From: Nautiliaceae bacterium
GTDB taxonomy: Bacteria; Campylobacterota; Campylobacteria; Campylobacterales; Nautiliaceae
Direction of reading: 5' to 3'
Length of the DNA stretch: 49,460 nt
Assembly (NCBI GenBank): GCA_027036005.1
Contig: JALVTJ010000011.1
Span: 1 to 49,460, forward strand
Below are positions 8,577 to 26,243 of the stretch, in pieces. A program made the position numbers and the translations under genes. The notes under the pieces were generated by a model. It saw only the letters and a list, made by a program, of their open reading frames with translations, was not told the DNA's origin and made no database searches. The stretch's first letter is position 1. The number at the start of each line of letters is the position of its first letter.

Positions 8577-9803
8577 TTAATAAATCGCTCTAAAAGAATT
8601 ATTAACAATTTGATAAAGTTTCGTTTTGTAATTAATTTGGTTATTAAAAATATAAAGTCTAAAATCGTTTAAATAGAATTCGTTAGTGTTAGTTGATTGA
8701 TTATATATTTTGTTTGCCAAAAGGGTTGAAGAATAATTTAGCCAGTTAAATTCTATATCACTATTTAAGAGTTGGTTATAATCTTCTAAAATGTCAGGAA
8801 CATTTAATATTGAATTTGCAATGATTAATTTTTCAACGTCTTGCGGTTGTGTGATTTCTATTAATAAAGGGTCATAATTTATTTGAGCTGAAAATTCCAA
8901 ATTAGGCTGAATGTTTTTATAATTTATATTTGATAATATTTGAGCAGTTTTACTTGCAGCAGTATTAAAAAATATATATGAATTATTTAAATCCGGATAA
9001 TTTATATTGGTATAGTGCATTACGGTTGCATTGAATTCTTTTTTTTCAAGATGGAATAATTTATCAGAAATATATGTATTTGAATTAATTATTACGACAC
9101 GGGAGGGAATTTGTAAAAAAGAAGATAATTTTTTTATTTGATTTTTGTAATCTATTCCTCCGAAATAGATATTCAAAGAATTTGTTTTAACATCATCTTT
9201 ATTAATTATTGGTAGATAAAAATTATTTTTAAAATTATTTAATGCGTATACCATATTAGGATTGATGGCATAAAACATTATATATGGGTAATTTAAAGCA
9301 TTTGTTAAATTGTTTTCGTCAAAAACCTGTATTGTATAGTTTACATTTTTGTATAAAAAATATGCATTAACGGAATTTATTATAGAAGGAAGATATTTTT
9401 TGAAAAATTTTTTATCTATTACAATAGCAAGTTTTATATTCGGTTTTAAAGATTTGAAAGTATCTTTAAATTTTTCCGTTTGAATTATGCTTTTGTTGGA
9501 TTCTTCGGTGGCATTTGTTTCTTTTGAAACATTAATTTCCATTAATTTTATTTTTTGTGAAACATTTGTATCTGTAATATTTTTATCGGGAGTATTTATG
9601 TATGTGATTTTAGAAATATTGGTTTCTTGTTTGTTTTGTGTTATGTTTATATTCGTATTATTTACATCGTTTTTTATTGTTTTATTTACATTTTTCATAA
9701 GGAGATTGTTTTGTGATGAAATATTGCTTTCGAAAGGATTTATGAAATTTATATTGTTTGCAAAAACCAAATTCATAAGCATTAAAATTATAATTTTTTT
9801 CAT
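8577..9803 (-). CDS. exported Asn-rich protein, probable N-glycoprotein
   Basis: A 408-residue protein of unknown function. MKKIIILMLMNLVFA is a signal peptide. Residues 16-110 form a low-complexity Asn-rich linker, and residues 120-408 look like a globular alpha/beta domain, possibly a periplasmic-binding fold such as LpoA, though I cannot prove this. Eleven D/E-x-N-x-S/T sequons occur (for example ESNIS, DKNIT, DTNVS, EINVS, ETNAT), eight of them in the linker. This is the acceptor motif of Campylobacter PglB. The start is the ATG at 9803 behind GGAGAGG; the ATG at 9815 lies upstream of that site. It follows the uracil-DNA glycosylase gene after 22 bases. Confidence 0.75.
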   Translation of the reverse strand: MKKIIILMLMNLVFANNINFINPFESNISSQNNLLMKNVNKTIKNDVNNTNINITQNKQETNISKITYINTPDKNITDTNVSQKIKLMEINVSKETNATEESNKSIIQTEKFKDTFKSLKPNIKLAIVIDKKFFKKYLPSIINSVNAYFLYKNVNYTIQVFDENNLTNALNYPYIMFYAINPNMVYALNNFKNNFYLPIINKDDVKTNSLNIYFGGIDYKNQIKKLSSFLQIPSRVVIINSNTYISDKLFHLEKKEFNATVMHYTNINYPDLNNSYIFFNTAASKTAQILSNINYKNIQPNLEFSAQINYDPLLIEITQPQDVEKLIIANSILNVPDILEDYNQLLNSDIEFNWLNYSSTLLANKIYNQSTNTNEFYLNDFRLYIFNNQINYKTKLYQIVNNSFRAIY

Positions 9804-9825
9804 TTTCCTCTCCATTTTTAATTTT

Positions 9826-10470
9826 TTATAACATACTTTTTATTAATAAAAAATCTTTGTAACTTTCTTTTTTAGCACTCGGATTTCTGAGTAAATAACT
9901 CGGATGAAATGTTGGCACAACCTTTTTTCCTTTGTATTCGAATATCTGCCCCCTGACCTTGCTAATAGGCAAATCGCTCTCCATAAGATACATAAAAGCG
10001 GTTTTGCCAAGACACACCAAAATTTTCGGATTGATTATATCTATCTGTTTTAAGAGATAAGGTTTGCATGTTTGTGCTTCTTCTATTGTGGGAACCCTAT
10101 TGTGAGGAGGTCTGCATTTTACAATGTTTGCAATATAAACATCATCTCTGTTTAAATTTAATACGTTTTGCAAAATTTTATTAAGAAGCTGCCCGGCTCT
10201 TCCGACAAACGGATGTCCGGTTTTATCTTCCGTCTCTCCCGGACCTTCACCTATAAGCATAAGTCTGGCTTTTGGATTTCCTTCTCCGAAAACCACATTC
10301 TTCCTTGTTTTGCTCAGATCGCAAAGAGTGCAGTTTTTGCATATTTTTTCAAGTTCAATAAGCTCATTTGGCATATTGATTTTCATTTCTTTGCTCTCAA
10401 ATCCTTCAAAATATTCTACTCCCGATTCTTTTAATTTATATAAGTGTTTCAGTTTTAATAAATTATCCAT
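9826..10470 (-). CDS. family 4 uracil-DNA glycosylase
   Basis: Removes uracil from DNA, a repair need that grows with temperature. The 214-residue protein has the family 4 signatures GEGPGETEDKTGHPFVGRAG and HPSYLLRNP. Cysteines in CKNCTLC, VKCRPP and TCKPYL are placed to hold the [4Fe-4S] cluster of the thermophile-type enzyme. About 45 residues precede the cluster domain, a typical extension for proteins of this group. It overlaps aroB by eight bases. Confidence 0.92.
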   Translation of the reverse strand: MDNLLKLKHLYKLKESGVEYFEGFESKEMKINMPNELIELEKICKNCTLCDLSKTRKNVVFGEGNPKARLMLIGEGPGETEDKTGHPFVGRAGQLLNKILQNVLNLNRDDVYIANIVKCRPPHNRVPTIEEAQTCKPYLLKQIDIINPKILVCLGKTAFMYLMESDLPISKVRGQIFEYKGKKVVPTFHPSYLLRNPSAKKESYKDFLLIKSML

Positions 10471-24166: not shown

Positions 24167-25108
24167 ATGAAACATATTACCAAGAAATTTATTGCCGACA
24201 AAAACGAAAGACTTGATAAATTTTTAGTTCAAAAGCTTAATATTTCAAGAAACCAAATAGAGCAGTTAATTAAAAAAGGTTTGGTCAAAATAAATTCAAT
24301 AATAGCTTCAAAAGGCGGAATTAAATTAAAAACCGGTGATATAATCGAATATGAAACGCCAAAACCTCAATTAAAAAAGTATAAAAAAGCAGATTTTAAC
24401 ATTCCAATTCTTTATGAAGACGATGATTTGCTGGTAATAAACAAACCGCCCGGAATTGTTGTTCATCCAGCTGCAAGCGTAAAAGAAGCTACACTTGTCG
24501 AATGGCTCAAACAAAAAGGCTTTGCTCTTTCTACCATAGCTGGAGAAGAGAGATTTGGAATTGTTCACAGAATTGATAAAGAGACGAGCGGAGCTTTGGT
24601 TATCGCCAAAAACAATAAAACGCATCGGTTTTTATCCGAACAGTTAAAAGACAAAAGTATGGGAAGGTATTATTTGTTTCTTACAAACATTCCGTTAAAA
24701 AAGCCGATATGTGTTGATAAACCAATTGGAAGAAATCCGAAAAACAGGCTCAAAATGGCAATAATTAAAAACGGCAAAGAAGCAAAAACGCTTTTTGTTC
24801 CGATTGAAAAAAATTTAGGAGCGGCAAAACTATATACCGGTAGAACACATCAGATAAGAGTTCATTTGCATTCGCTCGGCAGGTATATTTTGGGAGACAA
24901 AACTTACGGAGCAAAAAAACAAAATATTCTAAGAGTCATGCTTCATGCAAAAGAGATTTATTTCACTCATCCAAACGGCAAAAAACTTAGTATAATAGCA
25001 CCGTTATTTGATGATTTTAAAAACTTGCTAAAAGGATATGAATATGAAAAAATCGATTATATCTCTAATTGCTTTACTGATTTTGAGCGGTTGTGCAACC
25101 CTGAATAA
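24167..25108 (+). CDS. RluA-family pseudouridine synthase with S4 domain
   Basis: A 313-residue enzyme that forms pseudouridine in 23S rRNA, probably RluD- or RluC-like. The S4 RNA-binding domain covers residues 13-70 (RLDKFLVQKLNISRNQIEQL). The catalytic HRIDKETSGALVIAKN motif and TGRTHQIRVHLHSLG follow. The ATG has no visible ribosome site, and the promoter is so close that the mRNA may be nearly leaderless. It overlaps the lipoprotein gene by 65 bases. Confidence 0.93.
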   Translation: MKHITKKFIADKNERLDKFLVQKLNISRNQIEQLIKKGLVKINSIIASKGGIKLKTGDIIEYETPKPQLKKYKKADFNIPILYEDDDLLVINKPPGIVVHPAASVKEATLVEWLKQKGFALSTIAGEERFGIVHRIDKETSGALVIAKNNKTHRFLSEQLKDKSMGRYYLFLTNIPLKKPICVDKPIGRNPKNRLKMAIIKNGKEAKTLFVPIEKNLGAAKLYTGRTHQIRVHLHSLGRYILGDKTYGAKKQNILRVMLHAKEIYFTHPNGKKLSIIAPLFDDFKNLLKGYEYEKIDYISNCFTDFERLCNPE

Positions 25109-26243
25109 ACCCGCACCTACTTCAAATCCGAATCTGCCTACGGTTAAAAAATTCAAAGCATATCCAGATAGAAACGCAATAGCGCTTTTTTGGAGCGTTG
25201 TTCCGCAAATGAAAGGATATTATATACAAAGATTTAATGCGAAAAATAACAAATGGCAACAAATAGCTACTATTAAAAATCCTTATAAATCGATTTATGT
25301 GGATACTGATCTTAAACCGGGGCACATATATAAATATAAAATAGCGACATTTGATAAAAATGGCATACCTTCTCTTGCAAAAGAAGTAACCCAAGCAACA
25401 CTTCCGAAACTTCAACCGGTTGTTCCGCTTGAAGCAAAACCGCTGACAAAAGGGGAAGTGAAAATAATTTTCAGACCTCATCCTAATGAAAGAGTATGCA
25501 AATACATTATCCAAAGATATAACAATAAAACAACTAAATGGGAAAATTTAGCGACAATAAGTCCGAGATTGAATGTCGAATATATCGATAAAGGTCTGGA
25601 AGATGGAAAAATTTACAAATACAGAATTATTGCTGTAACTTTTGATGGAATCAAATCTTTCCCTTCAACTCCATTGGTTGTTTCAACATATCCTAAACCA
25701 CCTGTTATTTTAAAAATAAACGCTTCAACCGATCTTCCTAAAAAAATAAAATTAACTTTTTCACCTGTGCCTAACGCCGTTTATTATAAAATCTATATTT
25801 CTGACATTCCCGATAACGGATCATTTACTTTTTATAAAAAAACAAATTCTACGGTTTTTATAGATCATATTAATAAAGACGGTTTTACAAGATATTACAA
25901 AGTAACAGCCGTTTCAAAACACGGCACGGAATCTCTTTTAAGCGATACCCCCGTTGTAATGGGACAAACACTTCCTAAGCCATCAACACCGATTGTTTCT
26001 ACAAACAGAATGGGAAATACGATCGAGTTTATCTTTACGTCTCCCGATAACAGGGCGGTTAAATATTTAATTGTTCGAAAAGAAAGTAAATCTCTTTTTA
26101 AATCAAACACAAAAAAATTCATTGCCGATTCAAACAGATTTACAGATACAATAAATCCGAAATATTCATATAAATATAAAATTTATGAAATAGACAAATA
26201 CGGTCTTATTTCAAATAAACCGGCGGTTATAGAGGTTAATTAA
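25044..26243 (+). CDS. flpA: FlpA-like lipoprotein with fibronectin III repeats
   Basis: A 399-residue outer-surface lipoprotein candidate. MKKSIISLIALLILSGC carries an LSGC lipobox with acylated Cys17. Four fibronectin type III-like repeats of about 90 residues follow, each with a Y-x-I-Q/Y-R strand and a K/Y-Y-K-I/V turn. The position between the pseudouridine synthase and trmB matches C. jejuni flpA, a fibronectin-binding protein; in a vent or free-living organism the ligand is more likely something else. The start is the second ATG (25044), seven bases after AAAGGA. Confidence 0.85.
   Translation: MKKSIISLIALLILSGCATLNKPAPTSNPNLPTVKKFKAYPDRNAIALFWSVVPQMKGYYIQRFNAKNNKWQQIATIKNPYKSIYVDTDLKPGHIYKYKIATFDKNGIPSLAKEVTQATLPKLQPVVPLEAKPLTKGEVKIIFRPHPNERVCKYIIQRYNNKTTKWENLATISPRLNVEYIDKGLEDGKIYKYRIIAVTFDGIKSFPSTPLVVSTYPKPPVILKINASTDLPKKIKLTFSPVPNAVYYKIYISDIPDNGSFTFYKKTNSTVFIDHINKDGFTRYYKVTAVSKHGTESLLSDTPVVMGQTLPKPSTPIVSTNRMGNTIEFIFTSPDNRAVKYLIVRKESKSLFKSNTKKFIADSNRFTDTINPKYSYKYKIYEIDKYGLISNKPAVIEVN

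Follow-up and report, generated by a model that had tools for sequence, protein, structure and literature searches.

A sequon-dense binding-fold protein of the Nautiliales as a probable multi-site acceptor for PglB

PglB systems and the protein in the window

PglB and its acceptor motif, which for the Campylobacter enzyme is D/E-x-N-x-S/T, are already known (PMC6025236). Vent bacteria with PglB include Nitratiruptor tergarcus, Sulfurovum lithotrophicum and Deferribacter (Mills et al. 2016, cited in PMC6025236), which, like the bacterium considered here, belong to vent lineages with a working or candidate PglB. In the form in which it is cited, that work is about enzymes and does not describe the acceptor family reported here. 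CmeA, CmeB and CmeC carry two sites per protein (PMC7683400), whereas the protein described here carries far more. What is new here is the sequon density, the exchange of an ordered segment for a sequon tail, and the protein family itself.

The stretch of DNA that was analysed (49,460 nucleotides, hereafter the window) corresponds to contig 11 of a Nautiliaceae genome of 1.4 Mb that is 97% complete. It encodes a sequon-rich protein (Table 1) flanked by udg and metE, for which an alternative in-frame start at 9815 would give 412 residues. Its signal peptide has a type-I-like end, VFA, as read from the N-terminal sequence only, and the AlphaFold model places a helix at residues 2-14. Reading the N-terminus directly, we found no lipobox. 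The protein is predicted to be an exported, soluble periplasmic protein. Residues 27-92 of the tail have pLDDT values below 50, whereas those of the core are mostly above 90.

Table 1. Features of the sequon-rich locus and their positions in the window
Feature	Coordinates	Strand	Basis
Gene of the sequon-rich exported protein (P0001), 408 aa	8577..9803	(-)	translation of the window
Signal peptide, residues 1-16 (MKKIIILMLMNLVFAN)	9756..9803	(-)	read from the sequence
Disordered tail, residues 16-112, 8 sequons	9468..9758	(-)	shuffles and AlphaFold
Folded core, residues 122-408, predicted type-I periplasmic-binding fold	8580..9440	(-)	AlphaFold, Foldseek
Uracil-DNA glycosylase superfamily gene, directly upstream of the P0001 gene	9826..10470	(-)	PF03167, 8e-41

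With regard to the enzyme, the genome of the window has a single STT3/PglB gene (G000:C30:5938-8061), preceded by glycosyltransferase genes and followed by PglC-like, aminotransferase (PglE-like) and PglF-like genes. Its product matches the PglB of C. lari (3rce) over the full length (8e-111) and, in this alignment, keeps D56, R331 (R319 here), WWDYG and MxxI. These comprise the catalytic residues and the arginine that reads the acidic -2 residue, roles established from the PglB structure. The system therefore resembles that of C. jejuni and C. lari (3rce, 5ogl, NF050801) in its catalytic residues, its -2-reading arginine, its acceptor motif and the PglC/PglE/PglF-like genes adjoining pglB. 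The score against NF050801 is 435 bits, with a curated cut-off of 1300, and the enzyme is therefore a distant homologue of that PglB. The PglD_N domain of the diNAcBac pathway had no match in the genome. Several features of a PglB-dependent bacterial N-glycoprotein occur together here: a PglB in the same genome with its catalytic and -2-acid-reading residues kept, export, as read from the N-terminus only, and sequons above chance. PglB, which the original prediction had proposed as the enzyme, is thus present with the appropriate residues.

Sequons in the protein and its orthologues

Sequons were counted as D/E-x-N-x-S/T, and expectations were obtained from 20,000 shuffles keeping composition. 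The whole protein has 11 sequons where 0.68 are expected, and residues 16-112 have 8 where 0.42 are expected; none of the 20,000 shuffles reached either count. The acceptors are Asn 27, 48, 62, 75, 80, 91, 97 and 103 in the tail and Asn 165, 258 and 273 in the core, with none past residue 280. The original prediction had described eleven sequons in an exported protein of 408 residues, eight in the tail and three in the globular part, far above the expectation from composition; all were found at the residues it gave, exactly so on re-translation, and the shuffles agree with the excess. Asparagine makes up 22 of the 97 tail residues. An acidic residue precedes these at -2 in eight of the 22 cases and at -1 in none, and all eight with the acid at -2 have S/T at +2; the enrichment is specific to the -2 acid offset. 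Codons differ between the sites, so that the sequons are not a DNA repeat. The orthologue of G006 contains exact 15-base tandem units encoding ETNQT (L022:1756-1830), and its sequons were multiplied by repeat expansion.

In a sample of 433 proteins, encoded by 479 kb of this genome, the protein ranks first with 11 sequons, followed by proteins with 6 and 5. Predicted exported proteins of the sample other than this one contain 13 sequons against 10.0 expected, which indicates that enrichment is a property of a few proteins; cytosolic proteins contain 45 against 65.7 expected. The FlpA-like lipoprotein at 25038-26243 has no sequon, as had been claimed. The second-ranking protein (L075:4744-5520, minus strand) has a helix-turn-helix-like part in the cytoplasm (a weak HTH_25 match), a single membrane span and six sequons in its outer part, and is possibly RodZ-like. 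The third, with five, is a lytic transglycosylase (L187:12714-14207, minus strand; PF01464).

Of the family's 21 genomes, 20 have an orthologue, as do 54 of 60 relatives; the named orthologues, from Nautiliaceae metagenome-assembled genomes, are 44 to 55% identical. In the 19 Nautiliales orthologues used for statistics, which are related and hence not independent rows, tails carry 65 sequons against 4.8 expected and cores 72 against 7.7, an enrichment of 9 to 13 fold. Control motifs in the same tails remained near chance: K/R-x-N-x-S/T occurred 3 times (2.5 expected), S/T-x-N-x-D/E 5 times (4.9), D/E-N-x-S/T 6 times (5.3) and D/E-x-Q-x-S/T 0 times (1.1), and two motifs with one spacing lengthened reached 1.8 and 2.2 fold. 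These controls bear on the possibility that an AT-rich genome drifted towards disordered tails rich in Asn, Lys, Thr and Glu, the motif being a by-product. Tail and core do have 23% GC, compared with 30% for the window, and the tail is rich in asparagine, so composition may supply raw material for sequons. Nevertheless, shuffles that retain this composition yield just 0.42 sequons, and the core, which is not of low complexity, is enriched 9 fold. Drift as the sole cause is ruled out by the control motifs, and we regard this explanation as extremely improbable.

The tails range from 23 to 113 residues, two of them without a sequon, and their median pairwise identity is 35%, compared with 48% for the cores. 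Sequons are thus retained while the tail sequence drifts, which is the outcome of the comparison that had been suggested at the outset; the two contrary outcomes named with it, a genome without pglB and asparagine richness without the D/E and S/T positions, were not observed for this genome. Core sequons occupy 20 different columns grouped in a few places. The loop 204-211 has a sequon in 16 of the 19 orthologues, at 206, 208 or 210; residues 163-169 have one in 13, and 186-193, 254-258 and 273 in nine each. The sites shift by one or two residues while the loops are constant, the pattern expected if a nearby glycan, and not the exact residue, is selected. All 72 core sequons lie within residues 122-280, and residues 281-408 have none despite 266 asparagines (Fisher p 2e-16). 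What this stretch lacks is the acid, since N-x-S/T without it is common there (28 occurrences). This gap may reflect the strong sequence conservation of the C-terminal part. On these sequence comparisons, selection for glycosylation by PglB is well supported.

The original prediction had also described the tail as a built-in glycan-decorated stalk, and this part did not hold. The tail follows the signal peptide as a disordered free end, lacking a lipobox or anchor, and the cores of the orthologues carry as many sequons as the tails (72 and 65), which argues for multi-site decoration of a soluble protein and not for a stalk between parts. A true stalk, in which an uncleaved signal anchor would hold the binding domain off the inner membrane, could draw on the predicted hydrophobic N-terminal helix, on tails of up to 113 residues and on the lipobox of a few distant relatives. 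However, the N-terminal sequence looks like a signal peptide that can be cleaved (VFA here, LFA and LNA in orthologues), Nautiliales members have no lipobox, and tails vary down to 23 residues or to no sequon at all; this arrangement is distinctly unlikely.

In other Campylobacterota, a short folded segment takes the place of the tail (in the AlphaFold model of the L128 relative, residues 31-80 have pLDDT values of about 83-94). This segment shows no excess of sequons (2 against 4.8 expected), whereas the cores contain 94 against 26.3 expected, mostly near residues 299, 273 and 206. Beyond residue 303, Campylobacterales members have 6 sequons in 716 asparagines. Outside the Nautiliales, genomes with PglB have 32 sequons against 11.6 expected (2.8 times), whereas those without it, which represent about three lineages only, have 0 against 2.9. 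Four rows of this comparison (G038, G049, G041b and G056b) are wrong short reading frames that add 0 to the observed and almost 0 to the expected count.

The link between PglB and sequons is weaker inside the Nautiliaceae. Five genomes without detected PglB, four of them drafts of 57-89% completeness and the fifth, G002, 96% complete with 5 sequons, average 4.8; together with G013 they range from 4 to 8. The nearly complete G013 has 8 sequons and a PglB gene interrupted by in-frame stops (G013:C1:803164-804940; L103, L105), owing either to an assembly error or to recent loss. G010 has PglB and one sequon only. The weaker link may be due to PglB having been lost recently or to contigs absent from the assemblies. 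Sites kept by G013 and G002, together with the ETNQT repeat of G006, could also mean that the sequons have no present function and form a block that was inherited or has recently expanded, for example where PglB no longer exists or has no access to them. This is very unlikely, given that the sites do not lie mostly at shared positions, as the 20 core columns and the 35% tail identity indicate, that losses without replacement would bring them near chance, and that PglB is intact in the genome of the window.

The core fold and the neighbouring genes

Foldseek comparisons (E down to 1.8e-8 and 1.7e-10) assign the modelled core to the type-I periplasmic-binding fold. For the protein of the window, Haemophilus LpoA ranks first (1.8e-8) with leucine-binding proteins close behind; for a Sulfurimonas relative, leucine-binding proteins come first and LpoA after. 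Searches of Pfam and NCBIfam gave no family match for the protein family, save one member in the Peripla_BP_6 test (E 0.13). Weak matches to LuxP among solved structures (0.028, alignment A1) disappeared with a larger alignment. Like LivJ/LivK and the C-domain of LpoA, the protein has a predicted type-I periplasmic-binding fold; unlike them, it has no Pfam or NCBIfam match and no adjacent ABC-transporter genes here, and it shares just 7-13% identity with them. An amino-acid-binding protein of an ABC transporter (LivJ, Peripla_BP_6) was rejected, as neither a profile match nor transporter genes nearby were found. LpoA proper (LppC, PF04348) was also rejected: its profile matched nothing in the genome even with E-values allowed up to 10, and the protein has no lipobox and is not an outer-membrane lipoprotein, lipobox-like starts being confined to a few distant relatives. 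According to the structural models, the protein is best placed in an unnamed, Campylobacterota-wide family with the type-I periplasmic-binding fold, LivJ- or LpoA-like.

A related proposal is that the core activates the single class A PBP as LpoA does, with the glycan tail helping it to pass through, or remain within, the peptidoglycan mesh. The best Foldseek match, the presence of one transglycosylase/PBP1A gene in the genome and the lytic transglycosylase among the other sequon-rich proteins are consistent with it. Leucine-binding proteins match equally or better, however, and the LppC match, the outer-membrane lipid anchor and the TPR domain of the LpoA type are all lacking here, which makes this role unlikely.

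Upstream of the family gene, at least 55 of 73 loci have a UDG-like reading frame, which overlaps that gene by 4 bp in 40 of them; the count used a loosened motif, the strict one having missed degenerate copies. This adjacency, conserved in the phylum, probably reflects co-transcription rather than shared function. In L128, L138, L159, L178 and L186 (Sulfurimonas and Helicobacter relatives) the neighbour lacks the usual active-site sequence and is still directly upstream. In other Nautiliales a mechanosensitive-channel gene lies between aroB and the UDG gene (L110:1886-3394), and one such gene encodes DTNTS and DTNNS near its start. It is absent from the window, where aroB and the UDG gene overlap at 10463-10470.

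Possible roles of the glycans

Taken from sequence, the protein is very probably a soluble periplasmic multi-site acceptor for the PglB of the same cell. This protein of a vent-type bacterium is probably among the most heavily glycosylated bacterial proteins of the Campylobacter type. After export, PglB would glycosylate many of the 11 asparagines, those of the flexible tail first. The glycans would hold the tail in an extended, soluble state and protect it from proteases. They would also cover one side of the binding-protein fold, while the conserved C-terminal surface would stay accessible to a partner or ligand. Judged by the fold alone, the core may regulate the peptidoglycan synthase in the manner of LpoA, or may be an orphan binding protein. 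Protease protection and tail extension would be the most likely roles of the glycans. Such roles are plausible because C. jejuni that has lost N-glycosylation shows disturbed stability of its proteome (PMC6478998) and disturbed function of its efflux pump (PMC7683400).

We tentatively suggest, as a possibility that falls somewhat short of an even chance, that a Campylobacterota binding-fold protein became a dedicated glycan carrier in the Nautiliales. Its folded N-terminal segment would have given way to a disordered tail whose sole conserved property is sequon density, an N-glycan counterpart of mucin-like tails. To our knowledge, the purpose of bacterial protein N-glycosylation is still poorly understood. 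Evolution appears to mark this family as a preferred glycosylation target, in which sites turn over while density, loops and the side of the fold are kept. The protein may therefore serve as a testable case for glycan function and as a natural multi-site PglB acceptor tag, and sequon density would be a signature of N-glycosylation that is easily scored from the sequences of environmental Campylobacterota.
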